Source: a virus. From it: a DNA stretch of 21,955 nt. The stretch covers positions 1-21,955 of the IMG/VR virus record IMGVR_UViG_3300042860_001310. One strand, written 5' to 3'. Positions 2,226 through 17,281 of the stretch are shown in pieces; position 1 is the first letter of the stretch; every line of letters starts with the position of its first letter. The notes below the pieces were generated by a model. The model was given only the letters and a program-made list of their open reading frames with translations, ran no database searches and had not been told where the DNA came from. The position numbers were made by a program, and so were the translations under genes.

Positions 2226-2369
2226 CTACTGATCTTTGGATTGTTTGTCAACCTGTGCTTTTTTCTCCCTGACCTTGGAGATCAGAGCATTGAGCTTATC
2301 CCTCTTCATGATTTCAGAGGGTCTCCTGCCTCTTCTGGGACCCTCTGGAGGAGTTAATTCCTCATTCAT
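2226..2369 (-). CDS. 47-aa basic hypothetical protein
   Basis: The frame starts ATGAATGAGG and encodes 47 residues: an acidic/proline start (MNEELTPPEG), then an arginine-rich turn (PRRGRRPSEI) and a lysine-rich helix. Its ATG overlaps the TGA of the preceding 212-aa gene (ATGA, 2369-2366), a strong sign of translational coupling. The PRRGRRPSE segment resembles small DNA-binding hooks, but this is only suggestive. A nine-pair inverted repeat lies inside the coding region. Function unknown. Confidence 0.65.
   Translation of the reverse strand: MNEELTPPEGPRRGRRPSEIMKRDKLNALISKVREKKAQVDKQSKDQ
2315..2347 (-). repeat. nine-base inverted repeat within the 47-aa gene
   Basis: The arms CAGAGGGTC (2339-2347 on the minus strand) and GACCCTCTG (2315-2323) are perfectly complementary and flank a 15-base loop. 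Seven of the nine arm bases are identical to the stem of the terminator at 3041-3058. No U-tract follows, so it should not terminate transcription by itself. Confidence 0.6.
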
Positions 2370-3004
2370 CTCTCTACCCCATACCTCTTGTCTGATCTTG
2401 AGGTGTCCATGTTCTTCTTGGCTTGAGAAGTAGAGATAGCATATCTCAAACTCTTGATCTCTTTAGGGGACTTCTCTGGGTATGTCTTTGCAAGCTTTGA
2501 GGGCTTGATTGCTTTGTAGACACTTTCCTTTTCTCTCTTCTCTGCAGCATCAAGGGCACGCTCTCTTAAGTGTGCTCTTAATTGCATCTCAAGTTCTTCT
2601 TTCTTAACTCCTCTTCTTTCTTCATGCTCTGCTCTACGTGCTCTCTGCTGACCACCACCCAATGCTAAAGCACCACTTGGATTAGCATATCTTTTAAGTC
2701 TAGCAGCAGATCTCTCATGCTCTGGGAGTTTTTTATCTACCTTTGCTTCATCAACTAATTCACCTTCAATCTCATAGGAATCTGCCATCCCATGAATATG
2801 CTTACCCTTAGACTTCTTATCTGCTCTTGCTGCTGATTGTGCTTCAGATCCAGCATACTTAGCACCAACTTTTGGTTCCATTTTGCTTGCTCTTTTATCA
2901 GCAGCTAATTCTCTTCTAAGTGCTTTTTCATCAGCACTCAATGCTTCATCCATTTGAGCATAAACTTGCTCATATGCTTCTCTAATGTTATTAAGTCCTG
3001 CCAT
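2366..3004 (-). CDS. highly charged 212-aa hypothetical protein, probable late/virion protein
   Basis: The protein begins MAGLNNIREAYEQVYAQM and is otherwise very rich in Ala, Lys, Arg and Glu, with runs such as RRAEHEERRGVKKEELEMQL that favour long helices or coiled coils. No enzymatic motif is present. The short N-terminal IREAY-x-x-VY helix resembles the starts of several marine T4-like phage virion proteins, from memory. The gene begins 23 bases after a perfect TATAAATA late promoter and right behind a terminator, so it is expected to be expressed late. It is coupled to the 47-aa gene by an ATGA overlap. A scaffold, internal head or structural role is inference. Confidence 0.7.
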   Translation of the reverse strand: MAGLNNIREAYEQVYAQMDEALSADEKALRRELAADKRASKMEPKVGAKYAGSEAQSAARADKKSKGKHIHGMADSYEIEGELVDEAKVDKKLPEHERSAARLKRYANPSGALALGGGQQRARRAEHEERRGVKKEELEMQLRAHLRERALDAAEKREKESVYKAIKPSKLAKTYPEKSPKEIKSLRYAISTSQAKKNMDTSRSDKRYGVER

Positions 3005-9695: not shown

Positions 9696-10611
9696 TCTGG
9701 ACACTCTTTAAAACAGAACTTGCTGCTTTTGCAAGTTTATCATAACGACCTTTAACTGTTCTATTTGCTGCAGGTGCTGCAGGTTTTGCATCAGGAGTGG
9801 TTTTGACTTTACCTTTCTTACCTTGAGGTCTCATACCAGCAAGAACAGTTTCACCTTTGCTATGAATTGCAGCAACTCTTTCTGCTTCTTTTTTTGCTGC
9901 TTTTCTTTGAGCATCAGTCATGGATCTTTGAGTTCTTTCTGATGCTGGTCTCATTTTAGTTTTTTTTGGATCAAATACTCCCTCTTCAAGATTTTCAAAA
10001 GCATCATTTCTTTGTGAAAGATACTCTACAATAGAATCAAATGATTCTTTTGTCATTGCAGATGTTCTTTGAAGTTTGATGCGAGCCATATCTGCAGCAA
10101 TCTGTGTTTGTGCTGCTCTACGCTTTGCTGATGCAAGTTGAGGATTGGTCACAGATACTGTTTCTGCATCACCTCTTGCTGGCATACCAGCAGTTCCTTC
10201 TGACATTTCATCAATATAAATATCAGTCATCTCATCCCAAGTGAATTCAGAAAGGTCATAACCTTCCTCTACAAGTTCAGAGACCCATGCTTCAACTTCT
10301 TCTTTGATTTGTGGGTTGATTGCAACTTTATTCTTACCACTCATTACATCAATTTTCTTGTCTTTAGAGTCGTTTTTCTTTTCAACTTCTACAAGAGTTT
10401 CTTCTTTTACACTTGAGGTATCTTTCCCATCTGGTTTACCACCCTTCTTTTTTTGAATGGCATTGTGGACTACACCACGATATTCTTTAGCACCAGATTC
10501 AATCTGACCATCTTCATCATAATCTTTCTTTGCTCTTTCTTCTTCTAAAGATTCTGTGTCAAAAAATGGTTTTCTAATTTCTTTATAAGGATCTGCCCAA
10601 ATGTTAGTCAT
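9691..10611 (-). CDS. 306-aa charged protein with EF-hand-like loop, probable virion protein
   Basis: The protein begins MTNIWADPYKEIRKPFFD. At residues 30-38 it carries DYDEDGQIE, the D-x-D-x-D-G-x-I pattern of EF-hand/dockerin-type calcium loops, followed by KEYRGVVHNAI. A middle segment (about 106-134, VEAWVSELVEEGYDLSEFTW) is a compact acidic helical motif I have seen repeated in T4-like cyanophage proteins. The C-terminal half is Lys/Ala-rich with low complexity (KAAKKEAERVAAI; AKPAAPAANRTVKGRY) and is probably disordered or nucleic-acid binding. A late promoter lies 29 bases before the start, inside the upstream gene, and the ATG overlaps the upstream stop (ATGA). A structural or internal head role is inference; a true calcium site is unproven, as EF-hand position 12 is Ala. 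Confidence 0.7.
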   Translation of the reverse strand: MTNIWADPYKEIRKPFFDTESLEEERAKKDYDEDGQIESGAKEYRGVVHNAIQKKKGGKPDGKDTSSVKEETLVEVEKKNDSKDKKIDVMSGKNKVAINPQIKEEVEAWVSELVEEGYDLSEFTWDEMTDIYIDEMSEGTAGMPARGDAETVSVTNPQLASAKRRAAQTQIAADMARIKLQRTSAMTKESFDSIVEYLSQRNDAFENLEEGVFDPKKTKMRPASERTQRSMTDAQRKAAKKEAERVAAIHSKGETVLAGMRPQGKKGKVKTTPDAKPAAPAANRTVKGRYDKLAKAASSVLKSVQK

Positions 10612-11891
10612 TTACTTTTAGATAATACTTTCCTTTTTTTATTTATAGATCCTACAGTTGCTCCAGGAGTCATAGATGCAACATATTTGGTATATCCTGA
10701 AGTTCCAACAAGAGTATTTGGTTTTCCTGGTTCCCTTGTCATACTGTCCATTTTAACTTCTGTATACTCACAAACATCTTTAATCCAGGACTTGAACATA
10801 ATTCCTTCTTCAGTTACACAAATCAAATGGTTAGCACCAGAACGAATTACTTCACCACGTAATCCAGTGTGTGAACTCTCCACCTTTGACCCAACCTTGA
10901 ATAAATTACCAAAGATATAGTTCTCTCTCAAACCTTTCCAATCATATTCTGGGGCAATTTGCCACAGATTATATCCTTCCTTAACATTCATAGATTGTTG
11001 AAGGTCTGCAAATAATTGCTTTGATTTTTTGAAGTTATTTGGAAGCATCTTCTTGAATGACTCAAAATCATTTTCTGCTGCTGCTTTTCTTGCTGCATCA
11101 GAAGCTACATCAGCATCTTTTGGACCAGCAGAAATGACATTCATGCTGACATAATCATAGAGTTGTCCGTTATTCTTGTTTGCAAGATTGTCAATTTCAG
11201 AGACTCTTTCTGCTCCACAAACAATATTGACACCAGTGTATCCTTCTTGATTCAAGAATGCAAGAACATCAAAGATGGTAACAAACTCATCACTATCAAT
11301 AATATTCTCTGCATATTCAGGGAACATTTCTTTGAGATAAGAAATCTTCAGATCTGGATCTAATGGATTTTGCTTTCCATCTTGAGATCTACTTGGGAAA
11401 ATATAGAAGTTTCCTTCAGTTGCAGTTTGCTTTGCAGTGCTGAATGCTTTTTGATGTGCTGTTGTTGGAGGATTAAACTTACCAAATACAACAGTTGCTA
11501 CTTCACCTCTTGAATCTTCTTTAGGTGGTTTTCCTGAAGGTTGTTGTCCTGCCCCTCCTCTTACAGCACCAGTAGGAGCAGGTGCCTTTGCTTTTGCTAC
11601 TGGTGCCTGTGCTGGTTTAGCACCTAATCTTTTACGTCCTGGTTTTTGTCCCTTGAATTTTCCAGGTTTTCCTCTTGATGGGTCTTGATTATCCTGATCT
11701 TCCTCACCATCACCTTTACCTTTTTTCTTACCAGATATAAATTCAAGTTGTCCTTTATAAGTTCTTGCAACTCTCTTTTGCTGCTTATCAATCCAATAAC
11801 CGTGTCCATCCCCTGTTAACCCAAGCTTGTGTGCTTTACTTGCTGCTTGGGAACTTCTTGCTTCGAAAATAAATTCTGAAAATCTTTTCAT
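10608..11891 (-). CDS. cytidylyltransferase-like protein with capsid-targeting-like N-terminus
   Basis: The 427-residue protein has four parts. The start MKRFSEFIFEARSSQ closely resembles the T4 capsid-targeting sequence (MKTYQEFIAEA). Residues about 53-130 are a low-complexity linker of Lys, Gly, Pro and Ala. About 131-300 is a nucleotidyltransferase domain of the cytidylyltransferase/NMNAT fold: VVFGKFNPPTTAHQ contains the T-x-A-H version of the H/T-x-G-H signature, and SDAARKAAAENDF lies where the second, C-terminal motif is expected. A C-terminal domain (KVGSKVESSHTGLRGEVIR; LICVTEEGIMFKSW) looks like a small beta-barrel seen in cyanophage proteins. The reaction would join a nucleotide to a phosphate-bearing substrate, but the substrate is unknown and the Gly-to-Ala change at the signature may reduce activity. 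Confidence 0.75.
   Translation of the reverse strand: MKRFSEFIFEARSSQAASKAHKLGLTGDGHGYWIDKQQKRVARTYKGQLEFISGKKKGKGDGEEDQDNQDPSRGKPGKFKGQKPGRKRLGAKPAQAPVAKAKAPAPTGAVRGGAGQQPSGKPPKEDSRGEVATVVFGKFNPPTTAHQKAFSTAKQTATEGNFYIFPSRSQDGKQNPLDPDLKISYLKEMFPEYAENIIDSDEFVTIFDVLAFLNQEGYTGVNIVCGAERVSEIDNLANKNNGQLYDYVSMNVISAGPKDADVASDAARKAAAENDFESFKKMLPNNFKKSKQLFADLQQSMNVKEGYNLWQIAPEYDWKGLRENYIFGNLFKVGSKVESSHTGLRGEVIRSGANHLICVTEEGIMFKSWIKDVCEYTEVKMDSMTREPGKPNTLVGTSGYTKYVASMTPGATVGSINKKRKVLSKSK
10640..10647 (-). promoter_or_regulatory. late promoter inside the cytidylyltransferase-like gene
   Basis: A perfect TATAAATA on the minus strand lies within the last codons of the upstream gene, 29 bases before the ATG of the 306-aa gene. 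The spacing matches the other late promoters in the window. It would let the 306-aa gene be expressed separately late in infection. Confidence 0.65.
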
Positions 11892-12112
11892 TTATTAATT
11901 TCTGAATATATCAAATCTTGGTTGCTATGAATATACTGCAGACCAAGTTTCTTGACTTGTAAATATTTATCTTTCTTATCCTTTGGATCTTTATCCTGAT
12001 CTACAAAACTCACATAAAATCTACAGAAATTTTCAATAGTTTTTCTTTTAAGTTGTTTAATTTTCACATGTTGCTTGTAGATCTTAATCAGATCTTTAAA
12101 AAATTCTTCCAT
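11888..12112 (-). CDS. 74-aa basic hypothetical protein
   Basis: I start this gene at ATG 12112-12110, which shares one base with the methyltransferase stop (TGATG); the TTG one codon further upstream is not needed. The product is lysine-rich and helical (FFKDLIKIYKQHVKIKQLKR), followed by a charged DQDKDPKDKKDK stretch. Its stop overlaps the next ATG (ATGA). The basic composition could fit nucleic-acid binding, but no domain is recognised. Confidence 0.65.
   Translation of the reverse strand: MEEFFKDLIKIYKQHVKIKQLKRKTIENFCRFYVSFVDQDKDPKDKKDKYLQVKKLGLQYIHSNQDLIYSEINK
11964..11971 (-). promoter_or_regulatory. possible late promoter for the cytidylyltransferase-like gene
   Basis: GATAAATA on the minus strand, one base from the late consensus, lies inside the 74-aa gene 73 bases before the next ATG. 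The spacing is longer than at the other sites and the AT-rich context makes a chance match possible. Confidence 0.3.
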
Positions 12113-12879
12113 CAAGAAAGTAAGGTAAAGATATCTCTTTCAGTATTTACCTCAATACCACACTCTTCCTTAAACTTTTCAAGGTCTTTTTTTGATGGGT
12201 TATTAATTCTTTCTCTTGCCATAGTGTGATAATCATCAGACAAATCAAATCCAATGTAATCATGTCCAAGAAGTTTAGCAGCAAGACCAGTAGTTCCTGA
12301 ACCACTATAAGGATCAAGAACTACTCCAGGTTCTTGCATAACACCTTGGATGCACCTAAGAGGAAGAATGATAGGAAATGGTGCAGGATGAGGATTCTTC
12401 ATCTCAGGACCAAACTTCCAAACACTTCCATAGTTCACAGATCTCCTAGGAAGTTTGGGACGCTTTGCTCCCTTACACAACCAATAGATTCTTTCATCAA
12501 TCTGGATAAATCTGTATCCAGAAATTTCTGGACCACTACCCCTATTCCAGATAATCTCTTCTCTGATGTGCCACTTAGTTTTAGGTAACCACTCCCAAGG
12601 AGATGTAGCATTACCTTGAAGATACCTTACCTTATGATTATAGAATAGAGAACCACCTTCTTTGGTTTTATCAAACAGAATATTCAGTAGTTCAATCTGT
12701 TGCTCTTGATAAACATCTTCTGGAAGCGAATCATCAAACTTATCATATTCAATTTTACGAAACAATCCACCACCAATCTTTTGTTTGTTATATGGAGGTG
12801 AAGTTACAGTGCAATCAATAGAGTTATCATCAAGTTGTTTTGCCAACTCAATACAATCTCCAGTTCTCAGGTCAATCAT
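12112..12879 (-). CDS. beta-class DNA methyltransferase (N4-cytosine or N6-adenine)
   Basis: The 255-residue enzyme has the catalytic TSPPYN motif near the N-terminus (26-31) and the S-adenosylmethionine-binding DPYSGSGTTG motif near the C-terminus (189-198). This motif order defines the beta class (N6_N4_Mtase family). NPHPAPFP at 162-169 is another family signature. SPPY is more often seen in N4-cytosine enzymes, but N6-adenine is possible. It would modify phage or host DNA at a short site, for example to protect from restriction. It lies 31 bases after the 425-aa gene, downstream of a putative nuclease, so it could be half of a restriction-type pair or a solitary protective enzyme. The length is normal and no motif is missing. 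Confidence 0.9.
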   Translation of the reverse strand: MIDLRTGDCIELAKQLDDNSIDCTVTSPPYNKQKIGGGLFRKIEYDKFDDSLPEDVYQEQQIELLNILFDKTKEGGSLFYNHKVRYLQGNATSPWEWLPKTKWHIREEIIWNRGSGPEISGYRFIQIDERIYWLCKGAKRPKLPRRSVNYGSVWKFGPEMKNPHPAPFPIILPLRCIQGVMQEPGVVLDPYSGSGTTGLAAKLLGHDYIGFDLSDDYHTMARERINNPSKKDLEKFKEECGIEVNTERDIFTLLS

Positions 12880-12910
12880 AGGGTTTCCAGTATTTTACCA
12901 GTGTAGCACA

Positions 12911-14188
12911 TCATTGGACTTTGATAAAGGGTCCAGAAAGGTCTGCTTGACTAATGTTCATCTTTGATGATAGGAAGTAAGCATGAGTAACTAATTCTGC
13001 TAATTTATTTTTCTTTTTTGCTTCAATAAACATTTTAATATATCTAAGAATTCTTAGTTTACTTCTCAACTTAACTGCAAAATTTTTGCCAGAAGGATTT
13101 GAAGACACTTTATCTAATTCAAAAGCCAATTCAATAAAAACTTCTGGAGAAACTTGTCTTCCTAAAACAGAAACTTTGCCAAAATCTTTTTTAATAGTTC
13201 TATCAGAAACTATGTCTTTAAAATATTTTTGCCAATATTTTAAATGAGTATCTGTAAATTTTCCACTTAAAGGGATATTATAATTGACATCTTCACCAGT
13301 ATATTTTTTAACAAGGTCTGCCATTTTTGGAGCAGGAATAGCACCATTCCTTGCAGTAGCATTTACATATTTTCCTTTATTATTAGGAACTCTATCTCTT
13401 GGTTCAGTTGCATGAGCAGCAGCACTAGAAACTTTACTCTCCCAAAAATATCTTTTAATATATTTTCCTGCTTTAAATTGTGCTTCAAATGTTAAAGAAT
13501 TTCCTGCAAAATCAGTTTCTCCACCTCTTTTTGAAATCTCCATATAGGTAAACATGTCACCTATAATATCGCCTTCATGAACTTCAATTCCATCAGGACC
13601 AACATCAAGATTAGTTTCATATACATGAGATTCTGGTTCTGCTTTTGTTGGTTTCTTAAGAGAAATGCCTATAAGTTTTTTATCCCTCAAAAGTTGACTC
13701 AAATATGCATTTACAGTCCCAACAAAAACTTCTGGTGCTGTTGTTCCATCAGAAAATTCTTTCTTTAACAAATCTACCATTTGTTTTATTTTATATTCTT
13801 CAGATGCTTTTACCATATAAACATCTGTAGTATTCCAACTATCTTTCTTTCCAGTAAAAAGTTTTTGCTGTTCTCTATTAAAACTATTCCAAATATAATC
13901 GTAAATATCAGTATCTTTATTGGGTGGTAGAGTTTTTGTTTTGCCACCATACCTTGCATATTTCCAAGAAGTATCTTCAGCACCTTCAGAGTGAGAAAGA
14001 TATTTCACAAGTGCTTTTGCTTGTTTAAGAAGACCTTCATACCACTCTTTATCCATATTAGGAAATTCTTTTTTTAAATCCTCAAAAACAATTAAATCTT
14101 GGTTGGGAGTTAAGTTTGCCCCTCTATCTATAGCATGATAAAAAGTTACAATAGATGCTGCTTCAAATAAGTCTGTTTCTGCTACCAT
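12911..14188 (-). CDS. 425-aa protein of unknown function
   Basis: I do not recognise this protein. It begins MVAETDLFEAASIVTFYHAI. The N-terminal ~110 residues look helical. Residues 114-127 (KKDSWNTTDVYMVK) and 172-179 (LIGISLKK) are an Asp-containing segment and a strand ending in Lys-Lys, spaced in a way that recalls divergent nuclease cores, though I cannot confirm it. The middle (GDMFTYMEISKRGGETDFAG; AAAHATEPRDRVPNNKG) is mixed, and the C-terminal ~100 residues are basic and helical (KLRSKLRILRYIKMFIEAKK). There is no membrane segment. It starts 2 bases after the putative nuclease gene, so both are almost certainly made together. The DNA is unusually AT-rich compared with the helicase and polymerase genes, suggesting acquisition. 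Confidence 0.75.
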   Translation of the reverse strand: MVAETDLFEAASIVTFYHAIDRGANLTPNQDLIVFEDLKKEFPNMDKEWYEGLLKQAKALVKYLSHSEGAEDTSWKYARYGGKTKTLPPNKDTDIYDYIWNSFNREQQKLFTGKKDSWNTTDVYMVKASEEYKIKQMVDLLKKEFSDGTTAPEVFVGTVNAYLSQLLRDKKLIGISLKKPTKAEPESHVYETNLDVGPDGIEVHEGDIIGDMFTYMEISKRGGETDFAGNSLTFEAQFKAGKYIKRYFWESKVSSAAAHATEPRDRVPNNKGKYVNATARNGAIPAPKMADLVKKYTGEDVNYNIPLSGKFTDTHLKYWQKYFKDIVSDRTIKKDFGKVSVLGRQVSPEVFIELAFELDKVSSNPSGKNFAVKLRSKLRILRYIKMFIEAKKKNKLAELVTHAYFLSSKMNISQADLSGPFIKVQ

Positions 14189-14190
14189 TT

Positions 14191-14931
14191 TTATAAAGAG
14201 AAGAATGGGTTTAGTTTTTTAGTATTTGGCAAAAATGAATATAAACTTTCAGTAAAAGTAGTTTTAGTAAATTTTACTTCTGGTTGTATTTCATAAAAAG
14301 CATAGGATGGACTTCTTAAACTTATCCTAATTCCAAATTCTCCAGTAGAATCTAAAACTGGAATATTTTTACCTAATCCTAATGGATCGTCTGTTGACGA
14401 TAATTTAAAAAAATTGTCTCCGATTTGTATGTATTCTGCAGATTCTTCTTTTCCAGATGAATAATGTTTTTTAGCAACTTCAGATACATCTATAACTTTT
14501 TTTGAAAGAATATACGCATTAGATTTTGTCTTTAAAAAATTACTCATAGTTGCATAAGAAACTGCATTAGAATTTCTCAATCCAGATTTTGTAGTAGGAA
14601 TAATAATTTTGTCTTTTGGTATATTAGAAAATTTAGAAATTTCTTCAATAAAATTATTCAATTCATTGGATCTATTTGCTATTTCTAATAATAATTTAGT
14701 CCCTCCTCCAGGATTTTTTGCCTGCCACTTTCCATCTTCATAACTAAATCTAGTGTTTATAATATTATCTGTTATATTCATCTTAACTTCAACCCAAGCA
14801 GTTGAATTTCCTTTTTTAACTTTTACATCAGAATAATGAACAGTTGCAGGAGGTCTAGTTGCAGTTACTCCATTAATTTTATCAATTTCTTCTGCAATTA
14901 ATCTTTCATGCCTATCAGATTTAGCACTCAT
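14191..14931 (-). CDS. putative PD-(D/E)XK nuclease
   Basis: The 246-residue protein shows a compact nuclease-like signature at its N-terminus: Glu9 in a first helix (RHERLIAEEI), Asp35 in HYSDVKV, and WVEVKMN with Glu48-x-Lys50, in the E...D...ExK order of the PD-(D/E)XK restriction-endonuclease fold. The spacing (D35 to E48) is normal for the family. The rest has no obvious second domain; the C-terminal third is rich in beta-type residues (FGIRISLRSPSYAFYEIQPEVKF). A good ribosome-binding site (AGGTGA) overlaps the stop of the MazG-like gene. The gene is strikingly AT-rich: bases 14641-14700 contain 11 G or C of 60. It is followed after 2 bases by the 425-aa gene and then a DNA methyltransferase. 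Specificity and target are unknown. Confidence 0.65.
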   Translation of the reverse strand: MSAKSDRHERLIAEEIDKINGVTATRPPATVHYSDVKVKKGNSTAWVEVKMNITDNIINTRFSYEDGKWQAKNPGGGTKLLLEIANRSNELNNFIEEISKFSNIPKDKIIIPTTKSGLRNSNAVSYATMSNFLKTKSNAYILSKKVIDVSEVAKKHYSSGKEESAEYIQIGDNFFKLSSTDDPLGLGKNIPVLDSTGEFGIRISLRSPSYAFYEIQPEVKFTKTTFTESLYSFLPNTKKLNPFFSL

Positions 14932-14937
14932 AATTTA

Positions 14938-15348
14938 TCACCTATCGTCTTCAGACCTATGCTCTGAATAAAATACGCTGAACGCACCCTCAGGATAACG
15001 CTTCATCAGTTTATCTACATTCCTTGAAATGACATAATCAATAGGAGTTTCAAGTGCAATGCAGGCTTGCATTACATACCACATCAGATCACCAAGTTCA
15101 GTAATCAGGTGGTCTTTGTTATCTTCATTCCAGGACTTACCTTGGAAAATCATCTTCTTCACGATCTCCAGGAACTCACCACCTTCAGCATTAATACCAA
15201 CACCAGCAGTCAGCAGGCGTTCAATATTAGCACCTTTGCGATCCAGTTCTACAATACGATCAGAAAATGCTACAAAATCTTTTGATGCATCTGAAGTGAC
15301 TGCATCTACAAAATTTTGATACTTATTAAAATCAACTTTATCAATCAT
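14938..15348 (-). CDS. MazG-like nucleotide pyrophosphohydrolase
   Basis: The 136-residue all-helical protein shows the metal-binding pattern of the MazG/all-alpha NTP pyrophosphohydrolase group: Glu55, Glu58 and Glu61 in AEGGEFLEIVKK, then Glu84 and Asp87 in ITELGDLMWYVMQA. Enzymes of this group split nucleoside triphosphates into the monophosphate and pyrophosphate. In phages they may recycle nucleotides or alter host signalling nucleotides such as (p)ppGpp; the substrate here is unknown. The gene follows helicase with an ATGA overlap, so it belongs to the replication operon. It is a stand-alone single domain. Confidence 0.82.
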   Translation of the reverse strand: MIDKVDFNKYQNFVDAVTSDASKDFVAFSDRIVELDRKGANIERLLTAGVGINAEGGEFLEIVKKMIFQGKSWNEDNKDHLITELGDLMWYVMQACIALETPIDYVISRNVDKLMKRYPEGAFSVFYSEHRSEDDR

Positions 15349-16727
15349 GAGAATTTTAAACTAGCGAATTTGTTATTTTTAGATTCTTCTTTAACATTAT
15401 ACTCTTCTTCTTGTCCAGAGTCAAGAATATCATCCTGTGCCTTTTGTTCACAATCATAGAGACGCATCTTTGCTCTATCAATACCCACAATAAATCTTTT
15501 GTTAATTGTGGGGTCATTGTATCTGTTCTTCAACTGCTTCACCATAATCTGCCCCAACTGTTCCAGTTCTTCTGTGCTAATAAGGGCAAACATAAGATCA
15601 GCAGTAGCAGGGAGACCAAAGGACTCACTAGTATCAGTAAGTTCAACATCAGAGTTGCCATAACCACTCCTAGTGGTTTGGGTAGCAGAGACAATGGGAA
15701 CATTGAATTCCACTGCCAATCCACGTAACTCTTCTGCAATTGCCTTAACATAAGAATAAGAGTTGACAGAGAAGTTTGACTTATACCTGCTGGAACCACA
15801 AATGTTAAGGTAATCAATGAAAATAATATCAGGTCTAAATGACTTCTTGAGAGCAAGTTCATTGAGGAGCGACTTGAAGTGACCAACATGTGCTGAAGCA
15901 GTTGGATACTCTTTAATAATAAGAGTGCCTTGTGTCTTCTTTGCAATATTATTTACTTTAGTATCAAACATCTGTTTGGGAAGGTCTACAATATCCTTGA
16001 TATTGACATTCAAAAGATTAGCATCAATTCTTTCAGCAATTCGTTCCTCCGCCATTTCAAGAGTGATATAGAGAACGGACCTGCCTTGCAGTAGGACGGA
16101 ACTAGCCACATGACACATGAATAGCGATTTCCCAACGCCTGTCCCAGCAAGAGCGATATTGAGAGTCTTGTTAGGGATACCACCTTTTGTGATTTTATTG
16201 AAATACTCCAAATCAAATGGGATCTTATCCTCTTTCTTGTGATAGGATTCATATCTTTGCTCATAATCACCAAGGTAGTCATGTCCAATGTGATTGTCAA
16301 AACTTACAGCAAGTGCTTGCTGAAGAATTGATGGAATAGAATCTCTGGACTTTTTCTCATCCTGACCATCAGCAATCTTAATAGATTCCATCAATGCCAG
16401 GTAAATTGCTCTATCCCTACACCACTTCTCTGTAGTATCAACAATCCAGTTTATTTCTGCTGGAGTATCATCTAATTTTGTAATATACTCACAAATTGTT
16501 TTAAATGTATCCTCACTAATGTCTGTTCTATTTTCTGTTTCAATCAGAAGAACTTCTTTAGTAGCAAGGTTATCATAGGAAACAACAAACTTACAGATTT
16601 CTTCAAAGACTACTTTCTCATGAAAGTTTTCAAAGTATTCTGATTTGATAAAAGGTAATACTTTTCTACAGTAATCATTATTAAATAAAAGATTTTTCAA
16701 AATTGTAGATTCAATTGTTTCCATCAT
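15345..16727 (-). CDS. gp41: replicative DNA helicase, T4 gp41 / DnaB type
   Basis: The 460-residue RecA-fold hexameric helicase unwinds DNA 5'-3' ahead of the polymerase and recruits the gp61 primase. An N-terminal helical domain (1-150) precedes the ATPase domain. The Walker A motif is GTGVGKS at 195-201, Walker B is IIFIDYL at 301-307, and VLYITLEMAEERIAERI is the DnaB-type segment after Walker A. VSATQTTRSGYG corresponds to the sensor/DNA-loop region. Two consecutive ATG codons are possible starts; the first forms the ATGA overlap with the oxygenase stop. Length fits T4 gp41 (about 475). Confidence 0.95.
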   Translation of the reverse strand: MMETIESTILKNLLFNNDYCRKVLPFIKSEYFENFHEKVVFEEICKFVVSYDNLATKEVLLIETENRTDISEDTFKTICEYITKLDDTPAEINWIVDTTEKWCRDRAIYLALMESIKIADGQDEKKSRDSIPSILQQALAVSFDNHIGHDYLGDYEQRYESYHKKEDKIPFDLEYFNKITKGGIPNKTLNIALAGTGVGKSLFMCHVASSVLLQGRSVLYITLEMAEERIAERIDANLLNVNIKDIVDLPKQMFDTKVNNIAKKTQGTLIIKEYPTASAHVGHFKSLLNELALKKSFRPDIIFIDYLNICGSSRYKSNFSVNSYSYVKAIAEELRGLAVEFNVPIVSATQTTRSGYGNSDVELTDTSESFGLPATADLMFALISTEELEQLGQIMVKQLKNRYNDPTINKRFIVGIDRAKMRLYDCEQKAQDDILDSGQEEEYNVKEESKNNKFASLKFS

Positions 16728-17281
16728 TTATAGTGCAAATATCCAGTTAAAATATACTTTGGTCCAGTGATTGGTGGTTCTCCTTTATGAGGAAACATCC
16801 ACAATGGAGGAAACAATACTAATGTCCCTCTTTTTGGTTGGATAGTCAGTCCACTAAAAACAGTTTTACCTCCTTCATCAACATCATTTAAATACCAAAG
16901 ATAAGAAAGATATCTCCTTGCACTTGCATAGTCTTGAACATCCACATGTGTATCAAACATATCAGATCCTCCAGGATTATACTTCTTAATCCTGAATTGC
17001 TCAAAAGCATGTGACTCTGGAAAAACTCTCTTGTCTACAAATTCATAGTACTTGTCTCTATATGCAAAAGCATTTTTAATGATAGTATCATGAATTAGAT
17101 TTACATCTCTGGAAATCTTACAGTTTTCTGTAAGATTGACCTGTGTAAAATTTGGTCTTGAATCATTCTCAATGCGTTCATGAAGTTGGGTTTGACTATC
17201 AAAAAATTGAATTAAAAAATCACATACTTCAGGTTCAAGAGCATTTTCATGAACCTGAATTAAATCATTTAAATCAACCAT
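16724..17281 (-). CDS. 2OG-Fe(II) oxygenase (prolyl-hydroxylase-like)
   Basis: The 185-residue enzyme is a double-stranded beta-helix dioxygenase that uses 2-oxoglutarate, oxygen and iron to hydroxylate a substrate. The iron ligands are visible as His112-x-Asp114 (DTHVDV) and His165 (FPHKGEP), and Lys175 in [10 protein letters not shown] is the likely 2-oxoglutarate anchor. [17 protein letters not shown] and GTLVLFPP are family segments. Length is typical of phage members. It overlaps uvsX by 8 bases and helicase by ATGA, inside the replication operon. The substrate could be a protein residue or a nucleic-acid base; the sequence does not tell. Confidence 0.88.

Follow-up and report, generated by a model that had tools for sequence, protein, structure and literature searches.

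A conserved cyanophage protein with a nuclease-like residue pattern in a swappable gene cassette: a possible particle-borne effector

The locus and the p425 family

The window analysed here is the whole 21,955-nucleotide stretch of the IMG/VR record IMGVR_UViG_3300042860_001310 and, judged by its sequence, represents part of a T4-like cyanophage genome. Among 2,585 matching records, the nearest relatives of its DNA polymerase are those of Synechococcus phage S-SRM01 (72%) and of other cyanophages. Its genes run in the order gp43, uvsX, 2OG oxygenase-like, gp41, mazG, p246, p425, methylase, a 75-aa gene and cytidylyltransferase; some of these labels follow what is usual in T4-like genomes, and others come from profile matches. 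The protein of interest is p425, which lies among the following genes.

10608..11891, minus strand: cytidylyltransferase/NMNAT-like protein, N-terminus MKRFSEFIFEA (profile match, comparison of N-termini)
12112..12879, minus strand: 255-aa N6/N4-type DNA methyltransferase, the constant downstream neighbour (profile matches, neighbourhood)
12911..14188, minus strand: p425, 425-aa protein of the PHROG 1462 family (ORF call, profile match, conservation)
14191..14931, minus strand: p246, 246-aa protein with a D...VEVK pattern, part of the swapped cassette (ORF call, alignment)
14938..15348, minus strand: MazG pyrophosphatase, the upstream border of the slot (profile matches)

The gene proposed at 12911-14188 was confirmed: a 425-aa ORF with an ATG start is open on the minus strand, and the plus strand of the same interval reads into many stops. 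It starts exactly 2 bases after the stop of p246, its product has the basic C-terminus that the original prediction described (net charge +9 over residues 370-425), and the two segments that had been singled out as a possible nuclease core, KKDSWNTTDVYMVK (114-127) and LIGISLKK (172-179), are found at exactly those residues. Relatives at 80-100% identity occupy 29 viral contig loci, and dN/dS is 0.11-0.18 against 6 relatives, so p425 is taken as a real gene; the ratios clearly point to purifying selection.

The protein had also been described as having no recognisable family. This holds for Pfam and NCBIfam, but p425 has a clear PHROG match (phrog_1462, E 4e-38), with residues 3-424 aligned to positions 106-487 of the 488 in the profile (E 4.1e-38), and the same profile is matched by 13 of the 13 members of set A1. 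By this match p425 belongs to PHROG 1462, a family of unknown function, and is no orphan. PADLOC, Pfam and NCBIfam scans of the alignment members gave scattered weak matches only, and a match of the REase_II model to one of 74 members (E 0.006) was not counted. Nothing was found in print on the family's function under its cluster names.

A protein search placed the family in 101 phage records, which by organism name are 100 cyanophages and one marine virus, and further searches placed it in viral contigs as well. When 15 phage records were searched whole, the family was present in 12 (11 of 13 and 1 of 2); the S-CREM1 genome has one phrog_1462 match, and none was found in S-SM1, S-CREM2 or S-SZBM1. 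T4 gave no match in the search that had detected the family in those 12 records, nor did the controls of that T4 search, and 36 pattern matches in bacterial genome contigs included no relative. The window shares with PHROG 1462 / T4-GC 419 of cyanophages the gene order mazG, family gene, (others), cytidylyltransferase, and the position between mazG and the cytidylyltransferase gene recurs in P-TIM68, S-RIM12, P-SSM4, P-RSM1, S-H38, S-MbCM7 and P-RSM4. The window's branch differs from the rest of PHROG 1462 in its longer loops, in lacking an N-terminal extension of about 110 aa, and in the adjoining methylase.

Family members also occur as tandem paralogues in three contigs (L092, L095 and L111), where a 480-496 aa copy lies directly before a 390-392 aa copy, and as a 738-aa fusion (L085:3101-5317) in which a long N-terminal region precedes the p425-family domain. 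That region carries an SDGHGGY stretch like the one near the start of the window's cytidylyltransferase, and both match phrog_3561.

The canonical D...ExK pattern of the upstream neighbour p246 (here D...VEVK) is preserved in 7 of 7 aligned sequences. Where two contigs have p425 proteins 87-96% identical, their p246 proteins share only 45-48% identity, as in a fast-changing nuclease-like gene.

Conserved residues and the predicted structure

Conservation was scored on an alignment drawn from 182 ORFs of 341-619 aa, of which 112 were kept below about 88% identity. Counting the window's protein, and leaving aside a row identical to it, the alignment comprises 113 rows; rows that were shorter, truncated or nearly identical to others had been removed. 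Pairs of rows share a median of 21% identity and at least 13%. W49, W118, D122, S176, L177, K178 and G282 are the same in all 113 rows, N193 and K409 are kept in 112 of 113 and N160 in 109 of 113. The features discussed below, all on the minus strand, are these.

12920..12922: Lys423, C-terminal strand, kept in 107 of 113 rows (6 gaps) (alignment)
13589..14188: N-terminal domain, residues 1-200, which folds alone with pLDDT 94.2 and pTM 0.90 (AlphaFold2)
13610..13612: Asn193, 112 of 113, 12-15 residues after K178 (alignment)
13655..13663: S176-L177-K178, each 113 of 113, at the end of strand 172-177 (alignment, model)
13823..13837: W118-N-x-x-D122 motif, W118 and D122 in 113 of 113 (alignment)
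14162..14164: Glu9, in the first helix, E in 107 of 113 (4 gaps, 2 Asn) (alignment)

The earlier proposal named Asp122, Lys178 and Lys179 as the residues to be conserved, and the first two are so without exception, but Lys179 is found in only 64 of 113 rows. Throughout the family the spacing is D-x(42-57)-S-x-K-x(11-14)-N, with D122 and S176 43-58 residues apart. As a control, nine further protein families from these loci were scored: none had an invariant SxK despite having 7-130 invariant columns, and p425 has 11 invariant columns, SxK among them (another two families had too few sequences for scoring). Glu9 was also considered as a prohead-protease site (LFE/A, resembling a T4 leader). The position three residues ahead of the cut varies, and the site sits in a confidently predicted helix, so a structural or catalytic role is preferred, with processing a possibility.

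AlphaFold2 gave the whole of p425 a pLDDT of 90.5. In the model D122 lies just before strand 123-127, two helices follow, and the SLK sequence stands at the end of strand 172-177; the two strands can be read as the D strand and the (D/E)xK strand of a PD-(D/E)XK fold with an inserted helical hairpin. Comparison with known structures gave no significant fold match, to a nuclease or otherwise. Foldseek against the PDB found no significant match to the whole model, the best (E 0.08) being an unrelated fragment of EsaA. For the domain, searched against 350,542 chains, the top rank went to Cfr10I (1cfr), which is not significant (E 1.1, probability 0.05, TM 0.15). The best VIA matches had Z 3.2 for the whole model and 4.8 for the domain, both to unrelated chains, and Cfr10I is not among the VIA matches listed for the domain. 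Profile searches of PDB sequences returned nothing relevant, and among viral models only 12 matched p425 at E <= 0.001, the named ones being cyanophage or uncultured-phage proteins.

The original prediction of a degenerate nuclease core is therefore plausible, because D122 and K178 are invariant and no control family has an invariant SxK, but it is not established, since no nuclease reached significance in either fold search. With respect to the PD-(D/E)XK superfamily, E9, D122 and K178 are conserved and the (D/E) position holds Ser in 113 of 113 rows. Ser also occupies this position in Cfr10I and NgoMIV, and Cfr10I is a restriction enzyme with the active site D...SxK...E. Ser176 in place of Asp or Glu before K178 fits either a degenerate site, as proposed, or a site of the Cfr10I/NgoMIV type. 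The likeness to the CCGG-family enzymes (Cfr10I, NgoMIV, Bse634I, BsaWI) lies in how an acid, D and (S)xK follow one another and are spaced, with a polar residue 12-15 positions after K; p425 differs in its additional beta and helical parts and in showing no detectable sequence similarity or significant structural match. The site variant given for these enzymes is PDX21-53KX12-13E (PMC4652773), and its acid 12-13 residues after K is absent from the p425 family, which has Asn193 there in 112 of 113 rows. With Ser and Asn standing for two acids of the standard site, p425 may be inactive. The D...SxK likeness had been noted before the fold search, and the top rank of Cfr10I proves nothing by itself. 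Membership of p425 in the PD-(D/E)XK nucleases is, on the model, unproven.

Cassette exchange, the neighbouring methylase and the virion

The slot occupied by p246 and p425 is exchanged between closely related phages, as seen in contig L209, which is 97.1% identical to the window over 10696-12880 and 98.1% over 14935-16908.

12881..14934, no strand assigned: interval replaced by an unrelated 335-aa gene in L209 (contig alignment)

The replaced interval is exactly p246 plus p425, with the one 335-aa gene in their place. In another contig (L070) the flanks are 93-95% identical to the window and p425 is about 40% identical. The replacement gene (L209:1989-2996) and 11 further loci form a family of 304-356 aa proteins with E, D-F...[ST]xK and TNT(L/V)KP, for which no significant Pfam or PDB match was found. 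ORF142 of S-SZBM1, in the same slot, aligns with this family as a distant member (26% to its first sequence), and the slot of S-SM1 holds another protein, phrog_22045. These substitutes show E...D...[ST]xK patterns. Homology between the replacement family (A6) and p425 was tried and rejected: the hhalign probabilities were 0.2 and 0.3 percent, with the replacement family represented by 8 mostly similar rows, so the two are treated as unrelated by sequence and the shared D...[ST]xK pattern is kept as a lead only.

The downstream methylase is a steadier companion. A neighbourhood count was made over 95 rows, a set from which 7 phage loci, the window's own copy and duplicate contigs are excluded. 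The methylase is the next labelled gene downstream of p425 in 53 rows; among the other 42, those of the window's type end 0-287 bases past the p425 gene, and the rest are 376-394 aa or tandem 480-496 aa types with no adjacent methylase. In window-type contigs of sufficient length the methylase is next downstream in 53 of 53, where types were assigned by protein length, on our reading, and L061 was taken as a truncated window-type row. Counted from the methylase side, p425 lies directly upstream (17-68 bases) in 67 of 80 loci; of the other 13, one contig begins at the methylase and the remaining 12 carry an unrelated 304-356 aa protein in that position. None of these locus counts are independent, because the contigs are those of related phages. 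In phages without an adjacent methylase, a T4-GC 71 / DUF6267 protein adjoins the slot (L032:5156-6082; L201:4478-5671); we take its KWDGAP to resemble motif I of ATP-dependent ligases.

One homologue links the p425 family to the phage particle. ORF90 of S-SCSM1 is a family member (phrog_1462, E 3.9e-66), and the S-SCSM1 record labels it, the preceding ORF89 and the following NMNAT-like ORF91 as virion proteins. The study behind the record found 45 proteins by mass spectrometry of particles purified on CsCl, and its authors regard some as possible contaminants (PMC9602691). Some contamination of the list is possible, even likely, since RegA is labelled as a virion protein too. The link for ORF90 is the record's label, as the passages of the paper do not name it, and the presence of the p425 family in virions thus depends on one homologue in one study. 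The particle proteomes of S-SM1, S-CREM2 and S-SZBM1 say nothing on packaging, as phrog_1462 has no match in these three genomes.

Three studies list the cytidylyltransferase of the p425 locus among virion proteins: those of S-SM1 (PMC3037559), S-CREM2 (Table 3, PMC10665884) and S-SZBM1 (Table 1, PMC9146016). Most of its listed homologues start with MKxFxxF(L/I)xEA. The T4 internal proteins IpII and IpIII start with MKTYQEFIAEA in the T4 record, a stretch which we take to be the capsid-targeting leader. That T4 internal proteins enter the head by a leader of this kind is described in PMC3012670. The cytidylyltransferase starts suggest that T4-type capsid targeting and cleavage by the prohead protease are kept in cyanophages. 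The virion-listed cytidylyltransferases with their T4-like leader, together with the labels of ORF89-91, make the p425 locus look like a block of ejected proteins. The start of p425 itself is MVAETDLFEAASIV and not MKxFxxF(L/I)xEA. Like p425 by the label of one homologue, the T4 internal head proteins (IpI, IpII and IpIII) are virion-associated and diverse between close phages; their type of leader is shared by the neighbouring cytidylyltransferase and not by p425.

Readings of p425 function

The reading we favour, tentatively and at somewhat less than an even chance, is that p425 is a particle-borne, nuclease-like, DNA-acting effector in a swappable cassette of T4-like cyanophages. It would be carried in the virion and enter the cell along with the phage DNA. 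The N-terminal domain is, on the model, probably a divergent PD-(D/E)XK nuclease domain, with Glu9 in the first helix, Asp122 opening one strand, Ser176-x-Lys178 closing the next, a two-helix insertion between them, and Asn193 about where the CCGG-type restriction enzymes carry their last acid. The beta-rich part and the basic helical part would bind DNA. Early in infection p425 might cut or nick host or competitor DNA, or bind host nucleases, and in the window's clade the adjoining methylase may protect the phage's own DNA. We read the slot as a diversity cassette, where one phage carries a protein with no homology to that of the next. Of this picture, the observations cover the gene, its conservation and synteny, the methylase linkage, the clean exchange in L209 and the virion label of one relative; the nuclease fold, catalysis, packaging of p425, target and protection by the methylase are inferred.

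The same residues could belong to a catalytically dead, nuclease-derived internal head protein which binds DNA and serves to condense the genome, to guide it, or to block host nucleases in the manner of T4 IPI* acting on GmrSD, the conserved residues keeping a groove for DNA or a partner. Ser176 and Asn193 in acid positions, the C-terminal charge of +9, the virion label of S-SCSM1 ORF90 and a slot diversity like that of T-even internal proteins (PMC3012670) speak for such a protein. We nevertheless hold it rather unlikely, as E9, D122, K178, N160, N193, K409 and K423, all polar, are kept at 13-21% identity. Such strict polar conservation exceeds what DNA binding usually needs. A somewhat less probable account makes p425 and the 255-aa methylase a phage restriction-modification pair, in which p425, newly made in the infected cell and not brought by the particle, is a sequence-specific endonuclease that acts on host or competing phage DNA while the methylase shields those same sites in the phage's own genome. 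The pairing of the two genes (53 of 53 window-type contigs; 67 of 80 methylase loci) and a spacing of active-site residues like that of CCGG restriction enzymes agree with this. Against it, p425 gives way at some loci to proteins with no detectable homology to it, beside a methylase that is still 77-97% identical, a change which specific partners should not tolerate unless their specificity is shared; many p425 relatives also have no adjacent methylase, and the contig counts are not independent.

The least probable account, which we think quite doubtful, is an enzyme with a novel, non-nuclease fold in which E9, D122, S176 and K178 serve other chemistry. It would accommodate both the lack of a significant PDB fold match and the small number of viral-model matches (12 at E <= 0.001), but the order and spacing of the residues resemble PD-(D/E)XK variants, and p246 and the slot's replacement proteins show D...[E/S/T]xK patterns.

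If the favoured reading of a virion-borne, nuclease-like cassette protein beside a methylase is true, it would give T4-like cyanophages, which are abundant in the sea, a concrete, testable route to attack host DNA, overcome defences or exclude rivals, and would help explain why unnamed genes are packed so densely into the stretch from mazG to the primase gene. A more specific form, which we regard as improbable though slightly less so than the new fold, has a restriction-type nuclease inside the particle that is cassette-exchanged among several unrelated nuclease families, with a fixed companion methylase marking phage DNA; such a restriction-modification system would be directed outward, at host DNA or rival phages, as soon as the phage enters the cell.

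Elsewhere in the window, a charged 212-aa protein (2366-3004, minus strand), with weak PHROG matches only (phrog_26015), gives the impression, and only that, of a likeness to cyanophage ejected or structural proteins.
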